In this document: in pieces, positions 2,970-63,087 of the stretch
How positions within the stretch are numbered: position 1 is the stretch's first letter
Layout: each line of letters begins with the position of its first letter
Assembly: GCA_903813345.2 (NCBI GenBank)
Contig: CAIIXF020000003.1
Coordinates: 26,799,248-26,863,247 of the forward strand
Direction: 5' to 3'
Source: Owenia fusiformis
Taxonomy: Eukaryota; Annelida; Polychaeta; Sabellida; Oweniidae
DNA length: 64,000 bases
Position numbers and translations under genes: made by a program
The notes under the pieces: model-generated
The model's database searches: none
Seen by the model: only the letters and a program-made list of their open reading frames with translations
What the model was told of the DNA's origin: nothing

Positions 2970-3319
2970 CCAAGCCACGTGCTATTGTTTATAGAGGGCG
3001 TTGTTTCCTGTCACGTGACATCTTCAATTCCCTCCAAATTAGGATACACAAGCGATCGTAAAGCATACTTTGTTGTGTTTATTGGATTAAATTACAGATT
3101 TCTTCAACCAGAAGTGACAAACACAAAGCAGAAGTTGAAAGTAAGTGTTGATATATGTCCAGAAACGCCTAGGATCTGTTTCAAATAAGAAAAAGAGACT
3201 TTTTACTAAGAAAAATCACACAAGAAATTTTTACAACCGAAAACGTGGTCTCTTCATTGATTCATTGACTGAGAATAAGAGTTTGGATTTGTAGATTTTT
3301 TAATTTAGAATCAATCAAA
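2970..3319 (+). promoter_or_regulatory. Presumed promoter/5' UTR of the SLC7 transporter gene
   Basis: Two E-boxes lie 35 bp apart, CCACGTGC at 2975-2982 and TCACGTGA (inside the palindrome GTCACGTGAC) at 3011-3018, about 300 bp before the start codon. No TATA box is clear. A donor-like AAAGTAAGTG at about 3138 could end a 5' UTR exon, but no matching acceptor was settled. The start context is CAAAATGAG. Confidence 0.35.
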
Positions 3320-6300
3320 ATGAGTAGTCAGCAATCAAATCACACCCATGCTGAAGCAGAACCAATGAATGCTGGAAATCACGACGGTAAATCTGATGAG
3401 GGAAGTGACAATAGTGGTATCAAACTGAAAAAAGAGCTTGGACTTCACAATGGAGTTGCAATCATTGTTGGTGTTATTATTGGAAGTGGGATCTTTGTGT
3501 CTCCAAAAGGAGTCCTCATTGAAGCTGGTTCAGTCGGGTCCTCGCTGATAGTATGGACATTATGCGGCGTTGTTTCATTGATCGGGGCCATGTGTTATGC
3601 AGAACTTGGAACAATGATTCTAAAATCTGGAGCGGATTATGCGTACATCAATGAAGCGTTTGGATCATTACCAGCGTTTCTGTATCTCTGGGTTGCGCTA
3701 CTTGTGATCATCCCGACAGGAAATGCAATCACTGCACTGACATTCGCTAACTACATTCTGCAGCCTATCTTTCCCGATTGTGACCCACCAGATACGGCTG
3801 TGAGGTTGCTGGCAGCTTTAGCGATAAGTAAGTAGATCTGTCGTCCATATATTGTAGATCCACATGAATTTTTGTCTTATTTTCAAGATTATAACTACTT
3901 ATAATGATTATAATGAAATTGGTAATTATTTTTTCATATTTTTATTTGTTATGGTATTTATACGATACATGTAGTTTAGCTAAAACTGCAGTGTTTTATT
4001 AGTTTCTCTGGCACAGGTTATTTCAAGGTAGGTTATTTGATAGTTACTATGTAGGGGTTTTATTGGGTTATAATTATGTGGAGGCTTCAGATTTATTTCG
4101 GACTTTGTGGTTATAAATAGAATTTTGCCCCAAAACACCTGATATTGATTGTGCCAACATATATCATCTTTAAAGTCTTGTTTATGTCTCGTAAAGTCAG
4201 TAACCTGCAAAAGGCTAATACGCCTACTTAAAGCAGATTTATGATTAACTAACATAATAGAACACAAGTAGAATATAATTTAAACCTTATTATTAAAAAT
4301 AGATCTATGGTTTGGTTTTAACTCATTTTAATTGGAACTAAGTTTGGCCCACATGTTAAGATACATTGGAGACTGTCAGGCTATCACATTGACATTGCCC
4401 CCTGTAAATAATGGCTGTAATATTGGTCACAATATTTCCTTGGCTACAATTAATATGGCTTGGTCACAATTTTGACTCAAGGTCACTCACAATTTTGGCT
4501 TGGTTTCAATATTGTCTTGGTCACAATTTTAGCAGAACTATCAAATGTACGTAATATTAATAATAGCCAGAGGGCAGAAAAAAATAAGACCATTTCAAGA
4601 CAAATTGTTACTATATTGCTGATAAAAACATCAGTCTTAAAATGGAACCTAAGCAGACTGACAGCTAAATATACAAATTATGTGCAAATATACAAATTAT
4701 GTGTGTCTGTATGTAAAAAGCCAAAGGTTATAGAGTGCAGCTATATTGTGCATGTTGGCATCTATTGTATATGTTTAATTAATAATATGCCATGATTCAT
4801 AAACTGATATTGATTACTATAAAGATAAATCCAGGAAAACTATTACAAGACTCATCAGATATTCAATCATTGAATTGAATATACTAGCAAAATTGGATTA
4901 AAATCTATGATATAAAAATTGGAACAAATACATGAAAGATTAAAAATGCAGTGTCAATTAAAAAATGTAATAATTACAGTATTTATTTGAAACTTGATTT
5001 GATTCTTAAGTTACAAATGAGCTAGTGCTCAATTTGGTACCCTTTCCATTTATTCAATTTGCTTCTTAAAAGAGAGCTTCATCTTCACTAGTAGTCACTA
5101 GACTGCGTACAGTGTATCCATTTTGAGTTCCTTCAAGAATTTCTAAAATTCTACATGTATATGCATACCAGTGTACCAGGGGCAAACATCTGCCTATCTG
5201 GGTATTTCCAGAGTAATTCCCATTCTCTATTCAATTTCTGGACATAGCACTAGCCACTAGTGACGTAATTCATCCATACTGGGAATTTAGGATTGCACTT
5301 ATATGGAAAATATGAATGGAGTGAAGATATATCGTAAAATAGTAAAAAAAATGGTGAGACTCATGTTTATGGAAGATTTAGAAACAATACTGAGCATTCT
5401 TGACAAATATCCTCAATTGTCAATTCGATGATTGAGAGAAGCAGAATTGCGCTTTTAGTACTAGAAGCGTGTGAGTGAAGAAATTAAACTTGTATTCAGG
5501 GAGACACAAAAAATATAACCAATGAATAAAAATGATAATAACTTTGATTCCCATTGTGATACCTATAAACTTGGCGAAGATTGTACTTTTGTGTCACCCT
5601 GTAGATAATCTCTTAGGGTATACAATAGTTCAAAATCTTGTCCATATTGAATATTCTATAGTAAATTATGTTCTGAATAGGAACAATTGCACTCCCTAAA
5701 TATATGTGGTATTTTCTTGAATGTCTCAGACTAGACATTGCTCAGAAATATGAACTGAATGGTGGCAAAATGTACAAATATCACTGGAAATGAGTACAGT
5801 ACTGAAATGACCTTGTCATGACATCAACCTCTCACAAGCTTTAGATAAAGAGAGATTTTGATAAATCAGAATGTGGTTGTGACAGACAAAACAAAAGAAA
5901 ATAAAAATAAACCTACAGTACAAACTGCGGATACCTCCTCCTGAGGCAACACCTCAAAGGCTTTTGAAGCCTTGCCATTCATAATATATATGTGAAATAT
6001 GTTGAATTAATAATTGCAATGTAGTGATCTCCCCAACACTGGATTGATTGTGCTGTATCCTGTTGGAATTCATAAAATAACATGTCACCTTGTATTGTTG
6101 AAAGTTTGCACCCTCAAAACGGGTTAAAATAGGATTTGCCACCCTGTTGACAACAACATCCCGTTGAGGTCACTTTGACATATAAAGAGAAAAAATGAAC
6201 TCCTCGGTCAGATGTTTTACATATGTAATTGAAACAAAAAGATGTAATGAGAATCTGAATTTGAAAATCCATACATGCACCTGTTATGTAGAAGCACCAC

Positions 6301-9300
6301 TTCTTGGGCTGAACTAGGGACTCTATTTCAGTAATTTAATTTTAGACCATGAAACCAAACCAAAACATTAGATCTACATTTATCTTGAGAAGTACTACCA
6401 CACTGAGAGCAAATTACGCATGGGAGATAATCAGAGGTATCATGACAAATATGTTTCATATCTATGATTACCAGTCAAGTAGAATTTACTTTTGGTTCAT
6501 TTAATCACCTGTAGAATTCTTATGATTGAATCACATGCTAAATTCTTCCCGACAAGTAGCTATTATAGTGAGCCATGAAACTTGTCTACTATTGAAAAAT
6601 GTTCTCGAATAGATATTATTTGAAAAAGTGAGATTTAAGTTTTGTTAATATATACATACTTCTTGAATGAATTATAAGATCAGAGATATGATAACAAAAT
6701 GTGATCATAAATTGTAAGTAGGGGTCAAAATTCAGAATTTCAAGTATGATATACAAAATTACTTGTTTTGTGAGTACAAGGTAAAAAGCTCATCAGAACT
6801 TTTGCATGTTCATTTGTCTTTTTATTTCCTCTCTTATACTACCAGGACAAAAAGCTGAAAAGGAGAAACCCATATCAAGGATTTTATTATCAGCAGGCAA
6901 CAGGCAATTTTAACTGTTTTCACAAAATCACCTGTTGTATTTAGGGCTTTTCAACTTTTCCAAGTAAATTTATGATTTCCATTATATTAATTTTGCCTGT
7001 TGTTTTCATTTAGCCTGTTGTGAGAAATTCTAGTGAAACCCCTACATATATGAGGTGATATTCTCAAGTTGAGGACTTCTTTGAAGTTAGTAGTCATCAG
7101 TCACCATATACTATAATTTAGTCCTCATTGAGAATATTTTTGATAATCTAAAGGTCATGGTCTTAACTACAGAGATTTAGGCCTCCTTGCCAACTAAATA
7201 CATAATTTGAAATAATGATGCTATTGTTAAACTAAGGAGCTCATGTACAAACAAAAAATTAAACCGTTTGGTAGATCAATTTCAAATTTTCAGGGATGAT
7301 TCTCAGTATGAAAATCTAGATCTGATTAGTTTTTGGGCATTCTGGGTAAATGTCAAGGCAGCCATTTTGGATTTTCCGTCCTCAAATCTTGTCTGTAAAG
7401 TCTTGTCTACGCATTTCCAGGTGAACCGTTTGGTAGATCAATTTGAAATTTTCAGGGATGATTCTCAGTATGAAAATCTAGATCTCATCAGTTTTTATGC
7501 ATTCTGGATAAATGTCAAGGCAGCCATTTTGGATTTTCCGTCTTAAAATCTTGCCCGTAAAGTCTTGTCTACGCGTTTTTAGGTGAACCGTTTGGTAGAT
7601 CAATTTCAAGTTTTCAGGGATGATTCTTAGTATGAAAATCTAGATCTGATTAGTTTTTGGGCATTCTGGGTAAATGTCAAGGCAGCCATTTTGGATTTTC
7701 GGTCCTCAAATCTTGTCTGTAAAGTCTTGTTTACATGTTTTCTGGTTAACTGTGTGACGGATCAATTTCAAATTTTCAGGGGTGCTTCTTAGTATGAAAA
7801 TCTAGAACTGACTAATTTTTGGGCATTCTGGGTAAATTTTAAGGTGGCCATATTGGATTTTCCATCCTCAAATTATGTCGTTAAAGTCTTGTCTACTCAT
7901 TTTTAGGATAACCATTTGATGGGATCACCCATAGGTGGGGACATTTTGTACACATTTGTGTTCTTGTATTATTTAGTTACACATCCAAACTTTCTGAGAA
8001 TCCCCAGCAAATGACAATTTGATTCTGAGATTAATTTCAGTGCAAATAATTCCAGACTATCAAACAAGTCAATGAAGTTGACATGAATGTCTGACAGTTA
8101 CACACTAATGTTCAATGAAATTGTCTTCTTATTGGTGTTGCTTTAAATCTAGTCGGGCTATGAATGAATATTGAGAAATAATATTTCAAAAATGTGAATA
8201 GTTCTGATTTGTATGTATTATGTAACAGGCAAGGTGACAGAAGGAGATAAGGCACAAGTATTAATAATTTCATTAACATCTTAATTGTTTGTTTATCAGA
8301 TAGACAAGTGTATCATATTCAGGTAGAGTGTATGATGGGCTGATTTTATCACATGTCTTACATGTATATCCGATTACCTAAATATTCATCCCAGCCCATA
8401 TAGAGACAATCAGAGTGGGAGGGCATAAATATTCATCCCAGCCCATATAGAGACAATCAAAGTGGAAGGGCATGAATATTCATCCCAGCCCATATAGAGA
8501 CAATCAGAGGGGGAGGGCATACATATTCATCCCAGCCCATATAGAGACAATCAGAGGGCGGGAGGGCATAAATATTCATCCCAGCCCATATAGAGACAAT
8601 CAGAGGGAGGGCATGGATATTCATCCCAGTCCATATAGAGACAATCAGAGTGGGAGGGCATAAATATTCATCCCAGCCCATGTAGAGACAATCAGAGGGG
8701 GAGGGCATAAATATTCATCCCAGCCCATATAGAGACAATCAGAGTGGGAGGGCATAAATATTCATCCCAGCCCATATAGAGACATCAGAGTGGGAGGGCA
8801 TAAATATTCATCCCAGTTTATACAGAGACAATCAAGAGTGGGAGGGCATAAATATTCATCCCAGCCCATATAGAGACAATTTTTTTTTTATACATAAATT
8901 TATTCCTTTAGTAAACAATATAAGACATGCAATTGATTGCCAAAGTTTTATAAAAAAAACATTAGCGGCAATTTTAGACAATATGAATAGGAATACATTA
9001 AAATTAAAAATCTAAAAATCTTTATAGAGACAATCAGAGGGGAGGGGCATAAATATTCATCCCAGCCCATATAGAGACAATCAGAGTGGGAGGGCATAAA
9101 TATTCATTCCAACCCACATAGAGACAATCAGAGTAAGAGGGCATAAATATTCATCCCTGCCCATATAAAGACAGTCAGAGGGGGAGGGCATAAATATTCA
9201 TTCCAACCCACATAGAGACAATCAGAGTGGGAGGGCATAAATATTCATTCCAGCCTATATAGAGATAATCAGAGTGGGAGGGCATGAATATTCATCCCAG

Positions 9301-12300
9301 CCCATATAGAGACAATCAGAGTGGGAGGGCATAAATATTCATCCCAGCCCATATAGAGACAATCAGAGTGGGAGGGCATAGATATTCATACCAGCCCATG
9401 TAGAGACAATCAGAGTGGGAGGGCATAAATATTCATCTCAGCTCATATAGAGACAATAAGAGTGAGAGGGCATAAATATTCATCCCAGCCCACATAGAGA
9501 CAATCAGAGTGGGAGGGCATAAATATTCATCCCAGTCCATATAGAGACAATCAGAGTGGGAGGGCATAAATATTCATTCCAACCCACATAGAGACAATGA
9601 GAGTGGGAGGGCCTAAATATTCATCCCAGCCCATATAAAGACAGTCAGAGGGAGGGGGGGGGCATTATTCAGGAATAACTGCATTATTTGTGTCACCACC
9701 ACAAGTAACATAGTGAATTACTTTTACAGTCTCTAACTTTTTAATGGACTGTGTTCAAGTTTGGAGTTTGATGTCTATAATAATTTGGCATCTGTAACAA
9801 TTTGCAATATCTTACAAGGTGGTGCCATTTTATATCATTTTACAAAGTGTTTTACTTTTTGTATTAAAGAGCTGTAATGGTAAAGTTATTGCATTTATAG
9901 CACAAATACAGTGCATGAACAATTGAACCTCATTTATTTTCTTCTTTCAGCTTTATTGACGTTTGTTAATTGTGCGAATGTGAAATGGGCAAACAAGGTA
10001 CAGATAGTGTTCACAGTAGCAAAGGTGGCAGCACTGGTCCTCATCATCATTATCGGAGCTGTGTATCTCGCTAAAGGTATGTAATTGGAAATGTTTTTGT
10101 TAAGTTGTAATCATGTGGAAAATGGAGTGGAATAGTATGGAACTAGCAAGAATTAATGTAAATAGGCATTTATGTTTTCAATACACTATATATAGAAATT
10201 ATAGCTGAGATTGAATGTTTCCTATACCAGCATGTGGAAAATCCGTCACAAAATTGTTCACTAAAATTGCTCTTATTTGAACAATTTTAATCCAATTAAC
10301 ACAAAAATTGTTTTAAAATGTGTAGAAATTATCTCTGTCATCTAATTTTACTAGGTTCTGCATCAAACGTTGTATCCATATTTAGTAAAATGTCAAAAGG
10401 TAGCAAAAATGAAAAAATCTCTTGATTTCAACCGATTTTAGAGCCTGGAATTCAAAAGGTTAAAGCTTGAAGGGTGGCATCAAGAGAAATTATGGCCTTC
10501 TATTAGATTCTTTCTAGTTGAAGACAAAGAGATGTGATGAGTGTCAGAATGGAAGAGTAGTTACCTCATATTAAGTATCATTTATATTAAAGAAGGTATT
10601 TATCAAAGTTCAAGTTGCAGATGATTTCCTTAAAGTTAATTTTTTTAAATTAGGCTATTTTAGGATATGTGTTACAGGTGTAACACTTTAATTAACTGAT
10701 AATTGAACTTGCATTTTTTTATTTACAGGGAATACAAAAAGTTTTGAGGATCCATGGAAGAACTCAAATACAGAACCTGGGGCCATAGCACTTTCATTTT
10801 ACTCAGGGTTATTCTCATATGCAGGATGGTGAGTAATTGTTTTGTGGGGGTTCATTATATTCTAACCAATCAATTTTCAGAATGTCATTCATTTTTTGTG
10901 TCACCCTGTAAAGTTCTCAATGTTGTGGTAGTTCCTTGTTCTTGAGTGGATCAAACTAGGTTTTATCACTAAACCATTTCAACAACAAAGTACATGTACT
11001 AGTCCTTTGAAAATGAGTGTTTTGGTGTTCAACTTCTGTTTCTAATTTAATTTTGTAGTTTCACTAGAACCTTGGAGCTCTAAATAGCCATGTTTTTCTG
11101 TCAGTTGAAATTGATATAGCTTATCTTTCAGTAGCATTTTGTTTGTAATCTATTATAAAAGCAGAATGTTTATGTTTTGTCCAGGCACTTAACTTGTGTA
11201 CAGGATCCCTCTGTCATCACACAAAATGGGTTCTGCCTTACATTTTTTCAAAGATTTCAAAATGATATATTTACAGTAAAGCCTGTGCCATTGTATACAC
11301 TCATCTAATCTTAATCCATTTTGGATTTTTTATTGAAGCCTCATATTATTAAATCTTCTACTGAATTATGATACCAATAAATATTTGACCCAATCTTATC
11401 TAAAAATTTAAGTGTCTGAATGAAAATCAAATTAATTTGCAATAGCCATATGTGGGGTAACCAAAGCTGACTTGTCCTTAAAGAGTAAGTTGTCAAAAAT
11501 AAACAGATAGTTTTCAACATAAATAAATTAATTATACTCTGGTGTAAACACTTTTTGAGGATTGAATGTGTGCAAAACATTAAATTTACATTTGTCAACC
11601 ATGTCACTATACTTAAGATAAATTGCTCTGAGGACCAGCATTGGTCCCAAAAACATGATTTGACAGCGCAAACATGAATCAAAATGAACTAATATGTCAG
11701 ATATGCATGCAATTGTTGTATTCAAGTATAGCATCTGCCACTTATATTAGTTTGAAAGAATTGATAATGAATTAAACATTGTTTAACTGTTAAAGTTGAT
11801 AGTTGTAACATGTTACTGCATTGTTAACAAGTAATTAATGGTCACCTGTAGTACATGTTATACGTTCTTAGCATTGTTCAACAGAGTCATTTTGGATAAG
11901 AAGCAAGATGCAGCCTTTCCTTGTATTCGCGAATGCCACTAACAGCTACCGGCTACGCCTATGAATTTACTTAAATTAACCCGTTAGTTTGAAGTGAGCA
12001 ACCCCTTTAACAGCTAACAGGGATCACATGACTTTTAATTATACAATTGTCACATGATCCAATACAATTAAAACGTGTCTTGCGTCTATGCACATGTTCT
12101 AGATGTACTTCCGCTATTTACAATCCAAATATGTCGATAGTCAGTGCTAGTTGGTGCTTTAATAGCCAAATTAAATCATTATTTAGGTGAGTTATTGCTT
12201 ATGAGGCGAGAGCTGGCAACTAACGGGAAAAATCCATATTATTATTCACTGTCATATTCCTCACTCACTGAGTGGTCTATGTCCTACATGTGACTAGAAG

Positions 12301-15300
12301 ATAATATGCCATATTCCCCTGTGTGTGCTTCATGTACATGTATTCATGTCAATAGAAATGAATGAAATATTTGTATGATATAACTTTCATAGCTTTTATT
12401 GATATATTGAATCATAACATACAAGTTCTTGGGTCATAACAAAAAGAAATAGCCTGTCTAAACTGTTTTCATTTTGTGAGTTACCTGAAAAATCGCTAAT
12501 TTAATCATTTCGAGTTTACAAGTCACAGATCTGTTAAATTAATTAGATTTTGACAAATTTTCAAAATGTTTATAAGTGACATTTTGGAATTTTCAATAAT
12601 GGTTTCAGTCATCACCTCATATGGTAAACTTTGTTCACAGAGTGTCAATGTACAATATGTTTCCTAAATCATTTTTAAATGAAACCAATTTGTCAAATCA
12701 GCATGTGTTATTTGATCTCTGACCTTAAGTAAAAATACTTCCTGGCCTTAAATTAAATGACAGAGCATATCTTTTCACCCCTGGATTTTTTATTCAATTT
12801 GGTGCAAATTCTCTGACTCAACTCCAAAGTTCAGACCAATTTGGTCAAAGTGTGCCAATATCTTTTGGTTTTTATTGATTTAACCTAGGGGTTTTCAGGT
12901 GGGTGCAAGCCTATTTTTAAAATCTCAAGTGGGTGCAGCATCAATGCTAGGGACCCCTGGATATATTTACAGAATATCAAATATAAAAGTATCACAGAAC
13001 CCAAAATTCTTTATCTTACCTCTGCATTAGTTCATCAAACAAATACAAAAAATGGCAAACCTTAATGTTGTTTTAAACGATAAACCATAGAATTGTAAAT
13101 ACAAATGTATTGTATCGTTAATATTGTATATTTTTAATTGAGTTTCTTTTTCATTTCAGGAATTATCTCAACTTTGTAACTGAAGAGCTTCAAAATCCTT
13201 ACAAGTAAGTTTCCATCGTGATGTCTTAATGTCTTCACTTGATTTGGGTCCACTGGTTAAGCCTTGTATTTTACATTTAAATTCAATTCATGTGTACATG
13301 TAAAGTTAAGAGTTTTTTTAATGAGGAAACTAAAGATTTCCTTGAATAAAAATTTGCGAAACTGATATATAGGATTAAAGAGTATATACTGTGGAGGCAC
13401 ATAACATTTAAACAGTGATAAAAATTATATACAGCTGTACTTGAATTATTTTTAAGTGTCCTTTTGGATTTCAAGGTGAAGTGTTTCATGTTGATAAAGT
13501 TATTAAGTCATGTACAATAAGTAAGCACAGAACATACAGTATACTCCTGATTCACTAGGACTTTAAGCAATAATTGTCAAAATACAGTAAATGATAAATC
13601 TTTGTCATATAGCACCTCATCAAAACTATCTTCTAGGAGGTTGTTTGGCTCTAAATCATTCCCTCGACACCAGGAACAAATAAAAATAAAATGCTGAAAA
13701 TAAAACAAAATAAGAGCAAGAGACTGCACTATTTCTTAAAATACATGTATATCGATGTTATGCATTTATTAGAGGTTCAAAATTGTAAGAATTGTACTTA
13801 TGACCTCACCATTGCTGAACAATCATAGTAAATTACAATTAAATGTGCCATATATGAAGTTCACTGGGTTTTTTTAAATGATAAGACATTACAATTGATT
13901 AATGTTTCATTTAAGGTTATTTATCAAATTAGAGACACTTGACATCATAGTTAATTGCATGCTGGGTTCAGATACACATATGAAAAAGTGAAAATATAAA
14001 TACACATGATTCTACCGAATTACATTCCTAACATAGATGTGACATGTTGGGCAGATCATTTTGGGCAGGTTTTTAAACCGCCAAACATTAACCTCATTTC
14101 TTTAACAAACACAGTTGAATATGTTTATATTTACAATTCAATTTTTCACAAATACCCCCTATAGAACATGTCTTGGGAGAGCTAAATCCTTATACAGTTC
14201 ATGACTCTGTCAGAGAGATCACTTATTCTGGAACAAAGCTCAACAGACGAGTTCCCCTTGTATTATCGTATGTACATTCAGTGGGTTATGTTTATTTAAA
14301 CTTTTTTGTCATTATTCAGTCATTTATAGGCTCACCTTATGCTAAGACACAAAAATTGAATCCCTTGATGTTTCTTTTTTGAGGGAATTCCCCTGGTACT
14401 TTTCCAATTTAAGTCTATTTAGTAAAATATTATTTTTGTAAATTTTATTAAGTTTTTATGAGAATCACTGTGAATTCAAAATCTCAAGGTCTTTCTTATA
14501 AGAGTTCATGTGTATCCTTCAGAGAGCAAAGTCTTGATTTTTAACCTGGCTGCCTCTCGTTTGAATCAAGCCTTAAATTCAACAAAATAAAAGTTTGGCT
14601 TTCTAATATGGTACCAAAGTTAATGCTTTCCCCCACAACCTGGAGTACATGTTTTGTTACAATGTCACGAGTCACCTTTACTTCTACCAATTTACCTAGT
14701 TGTAAGTTATGCAGTCTACAGTCTACTTGATCTTTGATATGCTATTCGTTAATCACAAGTTTTAAACTTTTTTTGACATAACCTCATTCAAAGATTGTTT
14801 AACATTACACAATGATCAAAGTAAAATCCAGAATTGTGAATCCTAAATTCAAATTTAATTCATCTCTATAACAGTGTCAATAAAATAGTTTCGTAATTTT
14901 AAACAGGTGTTTTCATATCCATATATGACATTGAACAAATATTTCACTCTATTGAGGTGAATACCTGTACATCTTTCACAAGTGATATTCCACGAAGCCC
15001 GAAGGGCAAGTGGAATATCACCTTGTGAAAGTGCTACAGGTATTCACCGAAAATAGAGTGAAATATTTGTTTTATTATATCACTGTCTAGCTAAACATCC
15101 CTAATATTATTAAGTCATAGGTTAACATTTGAAATACATTGAATCTACTCGGTTCGTCTGCCATTTTGACTTAATTGAATATCGCCAGATATCCCACGAC
15201 ATGTGACCCGGTTTTGACCAATCATACTGTCGCTAGCTAGATAGTGATATAATAATTCATGATATTAAGTTACTGTCAAACCAGTGTTTACTGAGCTGTT

Positions 15301-18300
15301 CGGAAATGACAGACTTTAACAGAAAAAGTTAACACAATCTTAGATTCGATTTTATTCAAGCAATTTTCATCTTTTGAGATTTTGATGCCTTTGATGACGG
15401 AATTAAAGTTATGTGGTATAATGAATTCACCTTTTTGTTCCTATAAGGAAATGCATTTAGAGCTAAATACTGCTAACCCACAGGATACATCTACATCTGT
15501 ACCTATCTGCCATCATAATGGGTAATAAAGTCCTTATCAAATGGACATCACATGAAGTTCATCAAGTTAATTTTACATAGATATGATGTGTTGTGAGATA
15601 TTAGCCTCTATCAAGCTGGTAAGGAAATGGATAGAATTAATTTTGGATTGCTGAATCAGAAATTGAACAACACTTCTGTGATATTTCTCATTGTGATGAA
15701 TCATGTTATACATTAATTCTCAGTTCAGATTCCATGATATTGTCAATAAGATTTGCTAATGCCTATTGTGTAATACACGGACATTACAGTCAATAGATAT
15801 ATGATTACTTCACACCTTGTGACATCTGTAACTTACCTATTAGTCTAGCTACAAGCTCCTGTGTCCCCCCCACCTCTGATTTGACACACACCTTCCTTGT
15901 AGCTAGACTACTTCATATCTCGAAAGCTTAAATCAGAGATGAAGTGTCCTAAATTCAGAAAATGTTGCTTGTGAAACTGAAAGATGGATATCAGAATGGA
16001 TTATCTCCATAATGTTATATCATACCCCATCCCTTGGCCATTCATTAATTTAATACATGAAGTTCAAATATGCTGCAGCAAAGCATACATTAAAGGTCCC
16101 ATACAAAGTTTGTAAAGAAGTTTTTGTCGTTAGTTTACTGTTTTTCATGGCTTTCAAAGTTATTATATAGATTTTCCCCCAAAATGTTTTTGAAAAAAAG
16201 TTGTCAGCTTTTTATTTCCTCAAATAAAACATTGACTTTGCATATTTTTAGAAATCTTCCAAGGGCAATCTGGATCTCAATGCCCCTAGTGACGGGAGTC
16301 TACGTGCTGGCCAATGTGGCATACTTTGCTGTCCTCACTCCTGAAGAGCTCTTAGAATCTAATGCAGTCGCTGTTGTGAGTATAGCTCTTGCCTTAAGAA
16401 AATAAAAATCTCACCTTAGGAAGCTACAATATTATTACTAAATGTATTTATTTTTCAGCATTTTAGAGTAAATAGTGAATATTAAATATATGGAGGGCTA
16501 TTTTGATTTCTTATGTTACAGACATTTGGTGGTCGGATGTTGGGCCCAATGGCATGGATAATGCCAGTTTTTGTAGCTGCATCAACATTCGGGGGCCTCA
16601 ATGGTGCCATCTTTACTTCAGCTAGGTAACTAACTTAGATGGTTTAGAAATAACGATTTTTAAATAATAGTTTAATGCTTAATAGTTTGACATAATATTC
16701 GCTGTTCTCTTAACTAGTTACATTTATGAAACATCATAATAACAAGATGGAGGAACTGTCAAAGTTCAAGTTTGGCAAAAAAAATTGTTTTTTTGATTTA
16801 AACCTACCTATACGTCAAGTTTCAGGAAATAACTTGATTCAAAGTTACAGAATAAGTCAAGAATAAGATTAAAGCTTTTTGTTTGGAATTTGGTTTTAAA
16901 AGAGGAGGCAATTTATATAAGTTTGTCCCTTGCTTTTGTTACATTGACAAAATTCTAGAATATTACCAATGTTAATTTGACATGGACTAACATCAATGTG
17001 ACAAAGGCGAGGGACCAAATGACCAAATATATGAATTGTGGCTTCAAAAACCAAATTCCCAACTCCATGTATATTCTGAAACTCTTTTTCTAAATTTGAG
17101 CCAAGTTATAATCTACAACTCGGTTTAAATTGAAAAAACAAAACATCTTACCAAACTTGAACACAGGCACTACCTCCATTTTGTTCCTTTGATGTTATAT
17201 TTCTGTTATTCATTTGTTGTTTGTACTTTGAAGTGAGCATGTTGTAATATTTTAAAGCATTATCGAAAGTTAATTCATTTTGGCATCTTTTGCAGGTTAT
17301 TTTTTGTAGGGGCAAGACAAGGTCATCTCCCAGAATCCTTAGCACTTATAAATGTCAAACATTATACTCCACTGCCCTCTTTAGTATTTGTGGTGAGTTA
17401 AAAGCAGACAACATTTTAATGTTGTTAACCAATCAATAACTGGAGAATATTCAGCTCTACCTTCATCCATTGCAATCTGGCTCTCATCCATGACCCACCC
17501 AATATAGTTTAGGTGCATAGATTGCAATAAGTATTGTTAGTTGCTTTAAAACAGTTCATCAGTGCTTGTTATGGAAATGCATGATCATTTTTGACAAAGG
17601 CTTCAAAAAAATTCAATTTGTCAAATTTAGATATCATATCACATAGTTCATGAGTTCATTTGAGTATGCGGCATTAGTTCATAATAATCTAATTGACTTG
17701 GTCTCTAAAAAGCTGTACATGCCTAATTCATTCTTATCATATTGCATGAGAAATTATTCGTATGAGGCCTACATTTTAAAATCAATGCATGGAATTCATT
17801 CTTGAATACTCCATTACTCTGGCTTGAGTTTGCAAATAAAAGAGTATGCTATGTAAAATTATGATTTGTTTTAATCCATTAACTTATCTCTGGCTGGATA
17901 GTATTCATTTGATAGGAGCCAATTAAAACATTAGAAAATCCAATGCCGCTGAATCATGCTATGTTATAAATAATATGCTTCATGCAAAATGCTCAAACAA
18001 TTCATGGCTGGTCACTCGTGTGACATCCTTCACATAATGCAAAAATAGTGCTGCAATATCCCTATTTACATATTCATTATTCAGTAACAAAGTATATTAG
18101 TTTAGTAGATACATGTAGTTTGCAGATACTAAAATCTGACATGGCAATTATGTAAATGGATGGAGGTCTGCCAGTATTCTCCAGTGAAAGGCCCTTTGTA
18201 TTGGCTTTCACTTTTTGAGTTGATTAACTTACTTTGTAATTAATTTTTTTTGATTAGAAGCCTTGAATATCTGCCTATTTTACCAATGCCTCTAAGTTGG

Positions 18301-21300
18301 ACATGTGATTGCTTTACGGTAAAATCTGTACATCTGAACGCCTCTCTATTCTGAACACCTCTCAATATTAAAACCTTTTCTTGGTCGATATTTCGTTATC
18401 TCCCATCCTTAAGAAATCATAAGATGGGAACACCTGCTAATCAGAACACTTGGTTTGTCCGTGTGGCGTTCACATAACATTGAAAATTTGCACGGGTTCA
18501 GATCTGGTGTTACGAGTGTAAAAGAATCACACTGCCATCTTTTAGTGTCCCAGAACCATGGTGCGACACAGGATTTTTCGCAATATGGAAAATAATACCA
18601 AAACTTGTTTTGAATGAAATTCTGACCAGATAGTCAGAAATCCTAATGTGACGCACCCTGCCTGGCACATTAGTCCTATCGGTTTTGCTAACATGTGTCA
18701 TTTCATTCATTTGTAGTTGTCCATTTCTATATTCATTGATAATGACTTAATATAGGTCTAGTTGAATGATTCTTCCATATGGTGTTAGGAAAGCCTACAG
18801 TACATAAATGAATGAAAAGATCCAAGTAAAACATCAAGACTATTTACTTGGTTTGGTCTGCCTTAAATCAGCATGTCTGTTCAAATGTAGAACTGTTTTG
18901 ATGACTGAGTTAGTGAAACAGAATTAATTACATACAAGTTTTACTGTAGTGATGTTGATTTGATGCATCATGTAGAAGAGTTGAATACTTTGAATGAAAT
19001 GACACTTTGTTGTTATGATAGATGTTTTATAAGCTTTGTTATGTCCCCACCACATAGTGTTGGGCCATATTGTCGTCCTAGGCGCGTCCGTCCGTCCGTC
19101 TGTCTGGTTGGTTGTCTGTCTGTCTGTCCGTCCGTACGTCCGGCAGTTTTCTCCAAAACCGCTACAGGTATCACCTTCTAATTTTCAGGAATAACTTATG
19201 AGTGCCTATAGATGTGGATGAAAAAAATTTAACTCGAAACCTACTTCCTGTCGGCCATTTTGAAGTCAAATGCTAAAATCCTTGTCTGCAAACTTTAAGA
19301 AAAACTGCTTCACAGTTGCTTTTAAAACTTTAACATCTTGTTCAGCTCACTTCATTCTAGATCTGATTAGGTTTTGGACCTGCTAGCTCAGTCATGTCAG
19401 CCATTTTGAATGTCTTAAGAAAAGTTAGCGCGCGATAATACTTTGTATCATATTGAATGGTGTTTTTGAGTTTTCATACTTTAACTATTTAGTAGCTTTA
19501 TAAATAATTTCAGATGTACTTTGCTGTAAAAGCCTACTTTATTGTTAACAGTAGTTATATGTGATAATTTTGTAAAAAGAAATCAGCAAAAACTCATATG
19601 GACTTTTTTATTGTCGGCCATTTTGGATTTTTCGGTCCTAAAATCTTGTCTGTGAAGTCTTGTCTGCGCGTTTTCAGGTGAACCGTTTGGTGGATCAATT
19701 TCAAATTTTCAGGAATGATTCTTAGTATAAAAATCTAGATCTCATTAGTTTTTTGGCATTCTGGGTAAATGTCAAGGCAGCCATTTTGGATTTTCCGTCC
19801 TAAAATCTTGTCTGTAAAGTCTTGTCTACTCGTTTTCAGGTGAACTGTTTGGTAGATCAATTTCAAATTTTCAGGAATGATTCTTAGTATGAAAATCTAG
19901 AACTGATTAGTTTTTTTGCATTCTGGGTAAATGTCAAGGCAGCCATTTTGGATTTTCTGTCTTAAAATCTTGCCTGTAAAGTCTTGTCTACGCGTTTTTA
20001 GGTGAACGGTTTGATAGATCAATTTCAAATTTTCAGGGATGATTCTTTGTATGAAAATCTACATCTGATTACTCTTTTTGCATTCTGCGTAAATGTTAAG
20101 GCAGCCATTTTGGATTTTCTGTCCTAAAATCTTGTCTGTAAAGTCTTGTCTACCCGTTTTCAGGTGAACCGTTTGGTAGATCAATTTCATATTTTCAGGG
20201 ATGATTCTTAGTATGAAAATCTACAAACAGATTAGTTTTTTGACATTCTTGGTAAATGTCAAGGCAGCCATTTTGGATTTTCCATCCTGAAGTCTTGTCT
20301 GTAAAGTCTTGTTTACATTTTTTCTGGTTAACTGTGTGACGGATCAATTTCAAATTTTCAGGGGTGGTTCTTAGTATGAAAATCTAGAATTGACTAAATT
20401 TTTGGCATTCTGGGTAAATTTTAAGGTGGCCACTTTGGATTTTCCGTCCTCAAATTGTGTTGGTAAAGTCTTGTCTACTCATCTTCAGGATAACCATTTC
20501 ACGGGATCACCACTTGGTGGGGACATTTTGTACACATTTGTGTTCTTGTTTATATTGTATTGTTTGTATTGCTTTCAGTGGTCTCCCCAGCATTAAAGCA
20601 AGTGGGCGCAGCACCCACCTGAGATTTTGAAAACAGGCCTGCACCCATCTGAAAATCCATTTGCACCCACTTGAAAATGAAGAAATCATGAAAAATAGGC
20701 ATATTTTGACCAATTTTGGTCTGAATTGTGAATATGAGAATTTTGCACCCACCCGAATAAAAATCCTGGGGAGATCACTGGCTTTGTTTTTATTGCTTTG
20801 TTTTACTGCTACTCTGTCTGTGATCCTATTATGTAAAAATATTTACTTGCATAATTATATAAAATTGTCTCAGCCAAGTTTTTATAATTCCTATATTCTT
20901 TCTATGTGCCTGCTTAATGGAGGAAAGCTGCGTTAATTAAATGAACTCCATAATGGGTTTATAATGCATTATGGGAGATTTTTAAAAAATAAATATGATT
21001 TTGCCATAAATGATGGGAATCAAGTCGCAATATCAGTACATGTATACATGTATATCCAGAAGTGGAACCTTTTTGTGATATGGGCTGTCCCTGAATTTCA
21101 ATAATACCTCACAGTTTTTTTAGAAAGCCTTAATACACCTCATGTCTCATGATCCCACCGTTCCCTTAATGCATTATAAGATGGTACCCTTCTTGGGATA
21201 CAGTATAAGACCTTACCCAACTTCTTGTGTTCCCTTTTGATGCATTCTGGAATGCAATTCTTTTTATTTATGTTGCATCCTGGGACAAAACATGTACCTC

Positions 21301-22986
21301 TGTTGTGGAATAATCATAACCATTGTTTTATTTAAGTAGTTTAGTACCTCTTTAAATTTTCTATATTTCTTAGACTGGTTTTTGTTGGGGCGCGTAATGG
21401 CCATTTCCCACATGCCCTCGCTCTGATAAACACCAAATTCTTCACTCCTGTGCCTGCCCTCTTTTTCGGGGTAAGTCAGCATAGGCATCAAGAATGATAT
21501 AGTTTGTTCTTAATTCTTAATGCCCATGACCGCACATATTGTAGCATGTATATTTGTTTTCATTTTATGTTGTATTTTTTGGTCTAAATGTTTAGTATAT
21601 TTCTTTTTCTCATTTTTTTATTACACAAAAATAAGCATGCATACTACTTTTCTGTCTAAGTATTGCTTAAAAATGGCTGGATACGTTTATATTCTGTTTT
21701 TTTTTAATTTGAACCAGAAGTTATAAGATATGCATGGATGCATTTATCGATCACAATGCTTACAATGCACAATGTGTTGCCATACTGATTTTGTTCATAT
21801 TGTTATATTATTAAAAGAAGTAAGAAAAAATCATGAAATGTTTTGTTTCAGTGTCTCATGTCACTAGTGATGTTGTGTACTAGTGACGTCTATGTCCTCA
21901 TTAACTACACAAGTTTTGTTGAATCAGCATTTATTGGGATCTCAATCGCTGGATTATTGTACCTCAGATGGAAACAACCAGACACATTTCGACCAATCAG
22001 AGTAAGGCATTTATTCATGTTTTTCAATGCATGTTCATGTGTGTTCAGTTATTTGTTGAACATTATGAATTCTGATCATTCAAAACGTTAATGCTTCTTA
22101 TATGGGTTAAACTTATCTGCCATTTATTTGAAATATTTAAAAATAAATAAATATCACCATGTAAGCCCAGCAAATAGTGCCAATCTATTTTTAAGAAGCT
22201 CATAGGTAAATGTGATAAATCTGAGACAAGTAATCAAACCTGGAAGAAAACCCATAGTCAAAAGTTATGCCAATCTAAACCAATGAGAATCCCGGAAATG
22301 CAATTTGTAAAATAGAAGTTTTTCCAAGCTTTATTTCAATGATCCAGTCAATTCATTGTATCATGAAATAAACAAAAGAAGTTACTCCTGTTTTTTTTCA
22401 GGTTAGTCTTGTGTGGCCAATTATATTCTCAGTGATCTGCGCGTTCCTGATCCTCTTCCCACTGTTCTACAGTCCCTTTGAGTGCCTCATGGGAATCATT
22501 ATGACGGCCACTGGTATCCCCGTCTACTGGCTTGGTGTCAGTTGGTCCAAAAAACCTAAATTGATTCGCTCATGGATTCGTAAGTATTTCTGTAGATTGT
22601 CAAGCTCTGTATTTATGCACCATTTAAAGGTTTGCATGAATGGTGCAATTTGTCTTAATCGTAAAGTTGATTTCCAAAAGAATCAGAAACTTAGTATTAA
22701 GACATGTGTGAGTGAACATTTTCTTGCTTTTTTAATGCATTTTTTTATCTCTTTGTGGAAAATAAGACCTCATTACTGATGATTTGTGTTATAAAATTGT
22801 GAACACCATTTACATGTTTCTTGAACTCTTTCTTAATCCAACAGTATGTGCTCTTTATTACTTTGATTGCAATAAGACAATCGATTGATTCAAGTATATT
22901 ATAAACTATCATTTTACTTTTCAGAACGTTTCACAATATCTGTTCAGAAGTTGCTTTACTGTGTATATCAAGAAAAAGAAGACTAG
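3320..22986 (+). CDS. SLC7A8-like: SLC7-family heteromeric amino-acid transporter light chain (LAT/y+LAT type)
   Basis: Membrane exchanger for amino acids that normally works disulfide-linked to a 4F2hc/SLC3 heavy chain. Exons: 3320-3827, 9951-10076, 10729-10828, 13160-13204, 16252-16375, 16522-16625, 17296-17392 (or 21374-21470), 21852-22001, 22402-22579 and 22925-22986. All introns are GT-AG. The total is 1494 nt, giving 497 aa plus stop, close to human LAT1/LAT2/y+LAT. The GSGIF substrate-loop motif is at residues 55-59. Cys154 in FPDCDPP sits where the heavy-chain disulfide cysteine lies. TM segments follow the 12-TM APC fold ([20 protein letters not shown] before the last TMs). Residues are a mosaic of LAT2 and y+LAT features ([12 protein letters not shown] is y+LAT-like), so substrate class is not assigned. 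Introns are heavily colonised by repeats. Exon 7 is duplicated. Family is certain; subfamily is not. Confidence 0.93.
3828..7264. other. SLC7 intron 1, first part
   Basis: Unique-looking AT-rich intron. I see no exon, RNA gene or clear repeat here. Short ORFs at 4460-4795 and elsewhere do not resemble known proteins. Confidence 0.5.
7265..7945 (+). repeat. 162-bp tandem array, about 4 copies, end of a TIR element
   Basis: The landmark GTAGATCAATTTCAA recurs at about 7271, 7433, 7595 and (diverged) 7756, a period of 161-162 bp. The array ends in GGTGGGGACAT, the right terminus of the complete element at 19041-20526, so this is a 5'-truncated relative. An ORF runs across two units only because a unit is divisible by three. 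Confidence 0.85.
8380..9660. repeat. Minisatellite, about 24 copies of a 46-47 bp unit
   Basis: The unit reads approximately GGGAGGGCATAAATATTCAT followed by CCCAGCCCATATAGAGACAAT. ATTCAT occurs 24 times at 45-50 bp spacing. Variants differ in GAGTG/GAGGG and CCCATAT/CCCACAT. The array is interrupted once, at 8881-9022, by a retrotransposed fragment. Open frames on both strands here are artefacts of the repeat. Confidence 0.95.
8881..9022 (-). mobile_element. Retrotransposed LINE/SINE 3' end with 12-bp target duplication
   Basis: 142 bp inserted in the minisatellite, flanked by TATAGAGACAAT at 8869-8880 and 9023-9034. It opens with a T-run, so the poly-A tail lies on the minus strand. Read on minus, the 3' end (AATAAATTTATGTATAAAAA) resembles the 3' end of the L1/Tx1-type LINE at 49.26 kb. 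Confidence 0.8.
9687..9848. mobile_element. MITE with GTCACCACC ends
   Basis: It runs from GTGTCACCACCACAAGT to AAGGTGGTGCCATTTTA. The interior (CATCTGTAACAATTTGCAAT) matches the copies at 58684-58803 and, inverted, 34440-34630 and 46967-50342. It sits just before exon 2 of the transporter. Confidence 0.65.
10077..12776. other. SLC7 intron 2 and most of intron 3
   Basis: Apart from exon 3 (10729-10828) I see no gene. Overlapping minus-strand ORFs at 11341-11734 look like chance frames in AT-rich DNA. Confidence 0.5.
12777..12962 (-). mobile_element. MITE, GTGGGTGCAGC family, inverted copy
   Basis: Diverged reverse copy of the elements at 20571-20788 and 50113-50312. Shared parts are the GCACCCAC blocks, a TTTGACCAAATTGG core and CCAGGGGT-type ends. 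Confidence 0.6.
13205..14930. other. SLC7 intron 4, first part
   Basis: No gene, RNA or clear repeat recognised. Confidence 0.5.
14931..15254. mobile_element. Hairpin MITE, copy 1
   Basis: A long hairpin (AACAAATATTTCACTCTATT against its complement at 15052-15071, apex GAAGCCCGAAGGGC) is followed by a segment with TIRs TATATCACTGTCTAGCTA and TAGCTAGATAGTGATATA. A second copy, longer by a ~100-bp internal segment, is at 60226-60648 in TIMM21 intron 4. Confidence 0.8.
15838..15913. repeat. Short inverted repeat
   Basis: TAGTCTAGCTACAAG and CTTGTAGCTAGACTA flank a C-rich 40-bp loop. It may be a tiny MITE or a structured intronic RNA. The rest of intron 4 to 16251 shows nothing. Confidence 0.5.
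16738..17187. mobile_element. 450-bp foldback element in intron 6
   Basis: Diverged arms of about 190-200 bp pair end to end. AACAAGATGGAGG pairs with CCTCCATTTTGTT, GTTCAAGTTTGG with ACCAAACTTGAAC, GGAATTTGGTTTT with AAAAACCAAATTCC, and GTCCCTTGC with the GCGAGGGAC block. In the pre-mRNA it would fold about 110 nt before exon 7a. Confidence 0.75.
17296..17392 (+). CDS. SLC7A8-like: Transporter exon 7a (alternative version)
   Basis: 97 nt bounded by TTTTGCAG and GTGAGT. It encodes residues 336-368, from [15 protein letters not shown] to TPLPSLVFV. In this fold that is the cytoplasmic end of TM8, the intracellular loop and the start of TM9. The phase matches exon 6 (ends AG, completed to AGG Arg) and exon 8. 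It lies about 108 bp downstream of a 450-bp inverted repeat. Confidence 0.9.
17393..19040. other. Intron between exons 7a and 7b, first part
   Basis: No exon or RNA gene recognised. No third version of exon 7 was found here by eye. Confidence 0.5.
19041..20526 (+). mobile_element. TIR element with internal 162-bp tandem repeats
   Basis: Ends are ATGTCCCCACCAC and GTGGGGACAT. The head is a GTCCGTCCGTCTGTCTG-type simple repeat at about 19085-19140. The interior has about five 161-163 bp units (GATCAATTTC landmarks near 19690, 19852, 20013, 20176, 20338). There is no transposase ORF, so it is non-autonomous. It lies between exons 7a and 7b. Confidence 0.75.
20571..20788 (+). mobile_element. MITE, GTGGGCGCAGC family
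   Basis: TIR-like ends CAGTGGTCTCCCCAG and CTGGGGAGATCACTGG. A close second copy lies at 50113-50312 and an older inverted one at 12777-12962. Confidence 0.75.
21374..21470 (+). CDS. SLC7A8-like: Transporter exon 7b (second version of the same segment)
   Basis: 97 nt bounded by TATTTCTTAG and GTAAGT, 3981 bp after exon 7a. It encodes [15 protein letters not shown] to TPVPALFFG, the same 32-residue segment with conservative and non-conservative changes (Q to N, L to F, E to H, VKHY to TKFF). Length and phase are identical to exon 7a. Using both, or neither, would shift the frame, so the two should be spliced as alternatives. No stop or broken splice site argues against function. Confidence 0.88.
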
Positions 22987-29626: not shown

Positions 29627-30736
29627 TTATGTTAAACTCAATCTTATTAGCCTTTTACCTTTCACTTTGTTACCAGCTCTTGCTGTAATATTCTTATGCA
29701 ATGAAACATGATCAAAGAACCCTTTAACATGAGTCCCAAGACCATTGTACATCTTCCTTACTTGTCCTTTCTTAATCAAAGGAAGCTGTTGTGCACTGTT
29801 TTCTTTTAACTGTCTCCATAACAATTCCATTTGTTTGGTTCCTATTGGTTGAGCTGTCATTGCCGTGGTGATAATCATTGCATCACTCAGTTTCTGGGTA
29901 TTTGGCAGGAAGCTTGATAAATGAGCCAACCTTACCCTGGATAGCTCAGTCCTGCATAAGCCAGTGAGGTACACATCTTCCCGAGGTAATGATTTGATTT
30001 TATCAACAATACCCATAATGCTTTGCATCACTTTAACAGGCATAATGTAACCGGAGCTCCCATCCACAAAATCGGGGTATTTCTTCCCTGCAAACAGTTT
30101 TAATGGCACAAAATCGACAGAATTCGGGAACCTATTAGTGTCCAGACCAGATATGACTCTGCCTGCGATATATTTCATATTGGATCTTCTTCCAGGTGTT
30201 TTAATCAGCGCAAGGATTTTATAATAGTTCACAAAACTGTTATCATTTGTTCTTAGGACAAATCTAGCCTCTTTACAATTATTTAGGATCCATCTTAGAC
30301 TCATCAAACTCTTAATTACTCCGATAGATGTTGTGTATCCCCCTCCCACTAGTAACATATCTGCATAACGATTATTTTCAGCTTCAACTAAAGTATTAAG
30401 TGTATAGTTTCTAGGTTTTTCCAAAACAAAAATCAGTTTAATATTCTTGTCACCAAGCTGATGTGTTGAGCCCCAAGTGTGTCTCACCGCGAGCCTCTGT
30501 TTGATATTCCAAGCCTCCGAATGAACAACTGTCACTAAGTAAACATTCTCTGTTTTTGCACAGGCTGGAGGTGACTTATACACTGGGAAATGTACCTCAT
30601 TACATGTTGATTTGCATACGTAGTTGTGAGGCTCTGGGATCAAAGCAAGGTATATGGTAAAGCTAACACAGATGCCAACCACTACTAGGAACTGGAGCAT
30701 CCTCTTGATCGCAACTTTGGGCTTTCTAGCCATCAT
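29627..30736 (-). CDS. GT31 beta-1,3-galactosyltransferase-like protein lacking the DxD motif
   Basis: Uninterrupted 369-aa ORF with the layout of a Golgi type II glycosyltransferase. It has a short basic N-terminus, a TM anchor at about residues 14-33, a stem with cysteines 41, 45 and 59, then the GT31 domain from about residue 64. Family motifs visible are QRLAVRHTWG (80-89), LIFVL (101-105), YADML (124-128), KSLMSLRW (142-149), YPDFVDGSSGYIMP and EDVYLTG. The metal- and UDP-sugar-binding DxD position reads RTNDNSFVN (NDN at 164-166). It is therefore either a pseudoenzyme or an enzyme with altered metal binding. The start ATG (or the next codon, also ATG) fits the anchor. A single coding exon is common in this family. 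It converges with the transporter gene. Donor and acceptor sugars cannot be told. Confidence 0.88.
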   Translation of the reverse strand: MMARKPKVAIKRMLQFLVVVGICVSFTIYLALIPEPHNYVCKSTCNEVHFPVYKSPPACAKTENVYLVTVVHSEAWNIKQRLAVRHTWGSTHQLGDKNIKLIFVLEKPRNYTLNTLVEAENNRYADMLLVGGGYTTSIGVIKSLMSLRWILNNCKEARFVLRTNDNSFVNYYKILALIKTPGRRSNMKYIAGRVISGLDTNRFPNSVDFVPLKLFAGKKYPDFVDGSSGYIMPVKVMQSIMGIVDKIKSLPREDVYLTGLCRTELSRVRLAHLSSFLPNTQKLSDAMIITTAMTAQPIGTKQMELLWRQLKENSAQQLPLIKKGQVRKMYNGLGTHVKGFFDHVSLHKNITARAGNKVKGKRLIRLSLT

Positions 30737-31688
30737 AAGTCCATATTTATCCTTCCTCTAAATTTTGATCACTAAAAGTCATATCCCACATGTATATTTT
30801 TGTCTATGGTATGTTATAATTGCATGTTATCAGGTGTTCAGTTGAACTTTAACCAGTTAAATATTACAAAGATGTTAATCATTAAATCAGTTGCAAGATA
30901 CTTATGACTTGATATTAACTATCAAAGGAATATAATTTTAGTTCATTTGATTTGATTTTAAGAACACCTTCTATCATCAATATACTTAAGATGGAAAACC
31001 ATTGTTAAAATATAACTTTTCATGCCATTTATTAGATAAACATCATAATATTTCCTGGAATGAGGCTTATATTTATATGTAAGTGTACTGGTCATGCAAA
31101 TTGTGGCCTTTAATTATTTTTGGGGGTATATAAAAGGACATGATCAGAGTTATGTAGATGCTTAAACCCTCAATGCAAATACCTTATGGGATCATTTTTA
31201 TGTTAAAATCAACATGACAGATAGCCAAATGTCAGGTTATATTTTTATTTTTTTTGCTCTCTATATATATTTTTACAGAATGCTAGTAGATGAACATTTC
31301 TTAGTATAGCCCTCTTATAGGTAATTCACATAATACAAAAGGTAATTCACATAATACAATAGGTAATTCGCATTGGCAACTCACATAATGCAAAGACAGG
31401 CGTACATAAGTAATCACATATCATAAGCTCAAAATGAAATTACATGTTATTCTAGATATGTAATGTCTAGAAATCAAATTCTGCCATATCTTCAATTAAA
31501 GGATCACACCAAAGCATTTGACGCACATTTGCATTTTAAATATCTATATTTTTGACAAAATATTAACAGTAGAAACCTAAAAAGTGGGACCCATCTCTGA
31601 GTGTAACATCTTGATAAGTGGAACACTACTTGATGTACAAAATGTATTCCAAATACACATGTTTTACTGTACACTAAAATCTAAAACA
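30737..31688. other. 5' flank of the glycosyltransferase-like gene
   Basis: No gene seen. A short direct repeat, GGTAATTCACATAATAC, occurs about three times at 31319-31375. Confidence 0.45.
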
Positions 31689-35476: not shown

Positions 35477-50681
<15,205 letters not shown>

Positions 50682-62787: not shown

Positions 62788-62792
62788 AAAAA
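62788..62792 (-). terminator. Pol III terminator of the SRP RNA gene
   Basis: On the minus strand the RNA end is followed by TTTTT, then further T-runs (TATTTTTATTTATTTTTT), a standard Pol III stop. Confidence 0.7.
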
Positions 62793-63087
62793 GAATTGAG
62801 TCCAACTGTGTTGGACGGGCTACAAGCCGTCGCCTATTCACAGGCGCGAACCCACTACTGCTCGACATGAGGACTTTTGTCTGCTGCGTTTCCGCCCTGG
62901 ACCTGTACGTCCCTCCTTAGACAACCTGGGCACCCTAGGCTCCCCAGGGGTGACCATATTGATGCCGAGCTTAGTGCGGACGCCCGATCGACATAGAGCA
63001 CCGACAAGCAGGACTCCCGCCCTCAAACCGTTCCACAACCCCAGCCTCCAAGTAACTGGATTACAGGAGCACGCCACAACTCCCAGC
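62788..63087 (-). ncRNA. RN7SL (SRP RNA): Signal recognition particle RNA (7SL/SRP RNA)
   Basis: About 300 nt, the usual metazoan length. Read on minus, the Alu domain begins GCTGGGAGTTGTGGCG with the CTGTAATCC loop motif. The conserved middle has GTCCGCACTAAGCTCGGCAT and CAATATGGTCACC. The S domain has the SRP54-binding helix 8 GGCGGAAACGCAGC (62883-62896, GGAA tetraloop). The 3' strand has AGTAGTGGGTTCGCGCCTGT and GAATAGGCG, matching the end of human 7SL closely. It is GC-rich unlike its surroundings. The RNA forms the scaffold of the particle that targets nascent secretory proteins to the ER. Intact core motifs, length, a T-run terminator and an upstream TATA-like box argue for a functional gene. 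It lies tail-to-tail with TIMM21. Confidence 0.95.

Follow-up and report, generated by a model that had tools for sequence, protein, structure and literature searches.

In the annelid Owenia fusiformis, a gene which on sequence grounds is taken to encode a LAT2-like heteromeric amino-acid transporter light chain (LAT-type SLC7) carries its seventh coding exon in two copies, 7a and 7b, separated by a 3,981-nt intron. It is probable that this exon was anciently duplicated in tandem, that the copies are used singly and that the effect of the swap would be mainly kinetic. Both copies are intact, conserved as protein and provided with good splice sites, and the reading frame is kept only if one of them alone is included. 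We infer that both isoforms are made and that they are kinetically different. The window, that is, the whole stretch of DNA analysed here, is 64,000 nucleotides long.

The gene and its two copies of exon 7

The gene has 10 coding exons on the plus strand, from 3320 to 22986, with GT-AG introns throughout, and yields a 497-residue open frame with either 7a alone or 7b alone. A 5′ UTR exon ending near 3139, as judged by eye, may lie upstream of coding exon 1. The exons and the features discussed below are as follows.

3320 to 3827, plus strand: coding exon 1, with the ATG start at 3320
9951 to 10076, plus strand: coding exon 2
10729 to 10828, plus strand: coding exon 3
13160 to 13204, plus strand: coding exon 4
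16252 to 16375, plus strand: coding exon 5
16522 to 16625, plus strand: coding exon 6, whose final AG forms the first two bases of a split Arg codon
17296 to 17392, plus strand: exon 7a, 97 nt, residues 336-368 of isoform A, sharing the split Arg codon with exon 6
17578 to 17791, plus strand: three TGCATG hexamers, at 17578, 17743 and 17786 (186, 351 and 394 nt after 7a)
19617 to 20489, plus strand: 162-bp tandem repeat array in the 7a-7b intron, present also in intron 1 (7262-7918)
21374 to 21470, plus strand: exon 7b, 97 nt, residues 336-368 of isoform B, sharing the split Arg codon with exon 6
21852 to 22001, plus strand: coding exon 8
22402 to 22579, plus strand: coding exon 9
22925 to 22986, plus strand: coding exon 10, carrying the stop

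Over its full length, the protein is nearest, among solved structures, to SLC7A8 (LAT2) and further light chains of heteromeric transporters. In a PDB sequence search, where 28 distinct sequences were matched per isoform, LAT2 came first (7b00, 8a6l and 7cmh; E 4.1e-176 for isoform A and 1.4e-173 for isoform B), y+LAT2 and the remaining heteromeric light chains coming next. The Pfam domain AA_permease_2 is found in both isoforms. For isoform A, the only one compared with NCBIfam, the best model is that of the L-type transporter, TIGR00911 (E 2.2e-193), at 643.3 bits, below the cut-off of 701.8. C154 of the protein aligns with a cysteine of LAT2, at the position that we take to be the disulphide link to the heavy chain. 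In a collection of bacterial and archaeal genomes, 18 relative loci were found, 34-48% identical and all bacterial by title. Large neutral amino acids are the substrates of LAT-type exchangers, among which LAT1 serves as a drug target (PMC7988154).

An earlier note on this DNA had described two exons of 97 nt that complete the same Arg codon and end on a codon boundary; its coordinates and these properties proved exact. The split codon is completed as AGG by 7a (AG-G) and as AGA by 7b (AG-A), and both copies have GT-AG sites. They are identical at 59 of 97 bases and at 21 of 33 residues. The GC content is 52% in 7b, 38% in 7a and 34% in the window. The equal length of the two exons follows from exon duplication and should not be counted as an independent coincidence. 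The flanks of 7a and 7b, when searched against each other, are not significantly similar as DNA (best E 0.035), which argues for an old duplication. In the exon 7 segment, identity to LAT2 is 21/33 for 7a and 19/33 for 7b. 7a is thus equally close to 7b and to LAT2, so that either the duplication is very ancient or 7b changed fast afterwards. L353 and N355, which the two copies have in common and which none of the seven light chains compared possesses, are consistent with a duplication within the gene's own lineage, two such columns being no proof; N355 is also Asn in CAT1. Altogether, the sequence speaks for a single old tandem duplication of one exon.

The copy 7b is the more derived one. 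Among the 12 columns that differ, 8 of its residues occur in none of the seven PDB light chains used as the main comparison, against 4 for 7a. When two further PDB chains are added separately, 7nf6 (a second b0,+AT) and 7ccs (a consensus-mutated xCT), the counts become 7 and 4, because 7nf6 has Val at column 338, like 7b. The mean BLOSUM62 score is likewise lower for 7b (88) than for 7a (105). SLC7A13 (8wk6) was excluded from the light-chain comparisons entirely.

Introns of the gene contain several repeats. The 162-bp arrays of intron 1 and of the 7a-7b intron have the same orientation and are at most 91% identical over 712 bp; they are not thought to be functional. Intron 1 also carries a 47-bp minisatellite of about 27 copies (8379-9650), and an inverted repeat lies on either side of 7a (17240-17259 and 17542-17561), one of 14 such pairs in 6 kb. 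Elsewhere in the window, the minus strand holds a full-length match to the metazoan SRP RNA gene (62790-63087; 256.9 bits, E 1.1e-69), an uninterrupted frame of 376 codons with a galactosyltransferase domain (29627-30757; Pfam Galactosyl_T, E 1.6e-22) and a PQ-loop repeat frame, which may represent a single exon of a PQ-loop gene product (50388-50681; E 1.9e-9). On the plus strand, 37582-43386 and 46979-49154 are probably remains of non-LTR retrotransposons, with frames resembling an endonuclease (Exo_endo_phos, below the Pfam cut-off), RVT_1 (E 7.9e-20) and zf-RVT. A search of the window for tRNA genes found none.

Coding constraint and splicing logic of the pair

The window contains 47 stretches of the form AG-97 nt-GT without an in-frame stop, 30 on the plus strand, including 7a and 7b, and 17 on the minus strand. 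When these are scored against 7a with BLOSUM62, 7a itself reaches 170, 7b 111 and the next best 3. With 7a as the query, tblastn finds 7b in the window at E 1.9e-11. The 38 base differences between the copies are distributed as 14, 4 and 20 over the three codon positions, and the scarcity of second-position changes (4/38) has a P value of 1e-4. The NG86 method gives a dN of 0.34 and a dS of 2.28, near saturation; a maximum-likelihood method gives a dN of 0.29 and a saturated dS. In 20,000 random sets of 38 changes, about 11.5 of the 33 residues were kept on average, with a maximum of 20 and never the 21 observed, and 29% of the sets were still free of stops. A dN of 0.34 with a dS of about 2.3 indicates that 7b is old and has been retained as coding sequence. 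A chance open reading frame as the source of 7b is ruled out by the scan of 97-nt stretches, by tblastn and by the substitution pattern.

If 7a and 7b are included together, translation meets a stop after codon 375, inside 7b and 404 nt before the last exon junction. If both are skipped, the stop comes after codon 340, in exon 8 and 315 nt before that junction. The frame shift that had been predicted for both or neither is thereby verified. By the rule known from vertebrates, transcripts with such early stops would be degraded, though this need not hold in this animal. The donors of 7a and 7b score 9.5 and 9.3 with a donor-site matrix, which places them third and fifth among ten donors (range 4.7-10.3). 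The two exons are adjacent and homologous, have compatible length and phase together with good splice sites, and are unproductive when jointly included or skipped, all of which characterizes mutually exclusive pairs. On these sequence features, 7a and 7b most probably form such a pair. The probable mutually exclusive splicing put forward in the earlier note holds as far as the duplicated exon, its coding capacity and the one-or-other frame logic are concerned; its accompanying remark, that no described case was known for the family, does not (see below).

Several devices that may enforce exclusivity were considered. Steric crowding, with less than about 50 nt from donor to branch point, does not apply to an intron of the length found here. 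A U2/U12 mismatch is not seen at the 7a and 7b sites either, the donors of both being GT-AG and, judged by eye against the U12 consensus, of U2 type. As for intron-intron RNA pairing near the two exons, eight pairs of nearby regions gave z values from -0.59 to 1.45 with 60 shuffles each. Neither crowding nor a U2/U12 mismatch can therefore force the choice, which would then rest on regulated use of the sites and on disposal of frameshifted products. Such a mode fits a survey of human mutually exclusive exons, where 60% of the clusters are of a length that is no multiple of three and joined reads occur in 83 (22%) of the clusters of frame-shifting type (PMC5740500).

The three TGCATG hexamers lie within 400 nt downstream of 7a, and of the 24 occurrences on the plus strand of the window no other three fall within such a span. 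TGCATG is presumably an Rbfox-type motif. A count of 3 in the region downstream of 7a is attained by 2 of 708 comparably frequent hexamers, and 18.5% of Markov shuffles (n = 200) have such a TGCATG cluster somewhere; the minus strand has one too. Because ten patterns were scanned around 11 exons and the shuffle control weakens the case, the cluster is no evidence of regulation. It may be retained as a lead to possible Rbfox sites.

Expected consequences of the swap for the transporter

The residues of exon 7 were aligned with the seven PDB light chains and CAT1. In this ungapped alignment, residues 336-368 correspond to LAT1 348-380 and to CAT1 353-385 (9uat chain numbering), and they span the cytoplasmic end of TM8, loop 8-9 and the start of TM9, in agreement with the region first proposed. 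In the outward-facing state of LAT1, Arg348 and Arg355 of TM8 hold the inner gate through Glu266 and Glu265, and its hydrophobic contacts include Phe344, Phe351, Ile366 and Val374 (PMC7988154). LAT1 Arg348, Arg355, Phe351 and Ile366 are R336, R343, F339 and I354 of the annelid protein, with no difference between 7a and 7b. The counterpart of Val374 is position 362, Leu in 7a and Val in 7b, and the equivalent of Phe344 falls upstream of exon 7. The columns that differ between the copies are 338, 344, 347, 349, 350, 356, 358, 359, 362, 364, 366 and 368; E349H, V356T, H358F and Y359F are among the changes and lie in the loop. Ten columns are invariant in the seven light chains, and 7a and 7b each keep nine of them, the exception being 344. 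At residue 344, where 7/7 light chains carry Glu, 7a has Gln and 7b has Asn; this residue adjoins the Arg at the CAT-2 affinity site.

According to the explanation that we favour, exon 7 would have been duplicated in tandem long ago and one copy would be used per transcript, transcripts with both or neither being truncated and probably destroyed. Isoform 7a would be the default form and 7b a specialised one, since 7b has the larger number of residues absent from the seven light chains. The swap would leave the main inner-gate contacts in place and alter the surrounding TM8 end, loop 8-9 and TM9 start. By analogy with CAT-2A/2B, it would mainly modify apparent affinity, turnover or trans-stimulation, and not the substrate pocket formed by TM1, TM6 and TM10. 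A kinetic switch is thus expected more than a new substrate range.

Other views of 7b may be envisaged. In one of them, 7b would be mainly a poison exon: only 7a would be productive, and added 7b would shift the frame and lower expression. The stop produced by joint inclusion, 404 nt before the last junction, and the joined reads of the human frame-shifting clusters (83, or 22%; PMC5740500) would suit this idea. However, a poison exon needs no conserved reading, and 7b keeps 9 of the 10 invariant columns with a dN of 0.34 against a dS of about 2.3, so we regard it as improbable. A dying, disused relic of the duplication would account for the more derived character of 7b (8 absent residues versus 4, or 7 versus 4 with two more chains; BLOSUM62 88 versus 105), but would hardly be left without stop or frameshift, with good splice sites, protected second codon positions and synonymous sites near saturation; we hold it to be slightly less probable still. 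The repeat-rich intron between the copies could also raise the suspicion of an assembly artefact or of a fragment of a neighbouring paralogue. Against it, 38 of the 97 bases differ between the copies, and other exons have no second copy. A scan of the plus strand for equal-length counterparts of seven other internal coding exons returned at best 12, whereas these exons score 77 to 320 against themselves. When both isoforms were searched in the window by tblastn, with E up to 1, only exon 7 proved doubled, save for one 27%-identical stretch (E 0.44). On tblastn, the substitution pattern and the equal-length scan, artefact and paralogue fragment were rejected as very improbable.

A more serious alternative, though still an unlikely one, would leave the two isoforms in place and give the swap a non-kinetic role, such as the choice of heavy-chain partner, trafficking or regulation by cytoplasmic factors. 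The loop changes E349H, V356T, H358F and Y359F would be well placed for this, and an intracellular interface with the heavy chain is mentioned in the LAT1 paper (PMC7988154). However, the heavy-chain contacts named there, Glu303 and Ser307, are outside the segment, whose residues in LAT1 help to shut the inner gate (PMC7988154), and the precedent in the TM8-TM9 slot is kinetic (CAT-2, PMC5803215). A mainly kinetic swap between two singly used copies remains the preferred reading. If one gene makes two gates in this way, the surroundings of its inner gate are varied at 12 positions with the main contacts kept.

Comparison with alternative exons of the SLC7 family

The CAT-2 exons of SLC7A2 are regarded as strictly mutually exclusive. 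We know of no exon-7 pair in SLC7A8 (LAT2) or in other heteromeric light chain genes. The literature on mutually exclusive exons with LAT or SLC7, most subscription papers being outside the scope of the search, brought up no LAT or heteromeric case, PMC4209874 included, an absence that weighs little. The main text of the human survey (PMC5740500) names no SLC7A gene, and that of PMC4465641 does not mention SLC7A2. The remark in the earlier note that it knew of no described case in the family needs correction, as SLC7A2 (CAT-2A/CAT-2B) and the teleost genes slc7a1a and slc7a1b had already been reported to have alternative exons, which extend from halfway through TM8 to halfway through TM9 (PMC7584565). 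In zebrafish slc7a1a, exons 6a and 6b change residues 352-399 / 352-398, a splicing event common with SLC7A2; that paper terms the CAT exon choice 'alternative splicing' (PMC7584565). The exon swap itself is thus known in the family, and what looks new is a TM8-loop-TM9 slot duplicated in the LAT (heteromeric) branch.

CAT-2A differs from CAT-2B by an about tenfold lower affinity and by the absence of trans-stimulation, for which Arg369 and an inserted Asn381 are held responsible (PMC5803215). Arg369 of CAT-2A is Arg334 of GkApcT, where a change to Glu lowered the alanine IC50 from 2 to 0.4 µM (PMC5803215). The end points of the alignment match GkApcT 327 to the first Arg of exon 7; hence GkApcT Arg334 is R343, which is Arg in both 7a and 7b. 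The swap of 7a and 7b occupies the same TM8-loop-TM9 segment as that of CAT-2A/2B, with neither an Arg versus acidic residue at the Arg369 site nor a one-residue insertion, R343 being present in both copies and their lengths being equal. As 7a and 7b both have Arg at the equivalent of the CAT-2 switch residue, they do not repeat the CAT mechanism at the level of single residues. The two systems share a protein slot and differ in the residue solution.

It is tempting to go further and to imagine, tentatively and at somewhat less than even confidence, that the TM8-TM9 inner-gate hairpin is a recurrent splicing-controlled dial in SLC7. The slot would have been duplicated independently in the CAT and LAT branches, and the choice between 7a and 7b would tune exchange kinetics, possibly with Rbfox control of 7a. 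If this is true, one hairpin, considering CAT-2 as well, sets kinetics in two SLC7 branches of only about 20% identity.

Among known systems, SLC7A2 is like the present gene in belonging to the SLC7 family and in swapping late TM8, the cytoplasmic loop and early TM9 (CAT-2A/CAT-2B; PMC5803215, PMC7584565). It differs in that its branch is cationic and non-heteromeric, with about 20% identity to LATs (PMC5803215). What distinguishes the CAT-2 isoforms is Arg369 and the inserted Asn381, whereas 7a and 7b both retain the equivalent Arg, R343, and have their 12 differences elsewhere. Exons 6a and 6b of teleost slc7a1a and slc7a1b are also alternative exons over the TM8-TM9 slot; unlike 7a and 7b, those of slc7a1a are of the CAT branch and differ in length by one residue, with a function described as awaiting confirmation (PMC7584565). 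Finally, human mutually exclusive exons in general are homologous and of equal length, like 7a and 7b (PMC5740500).
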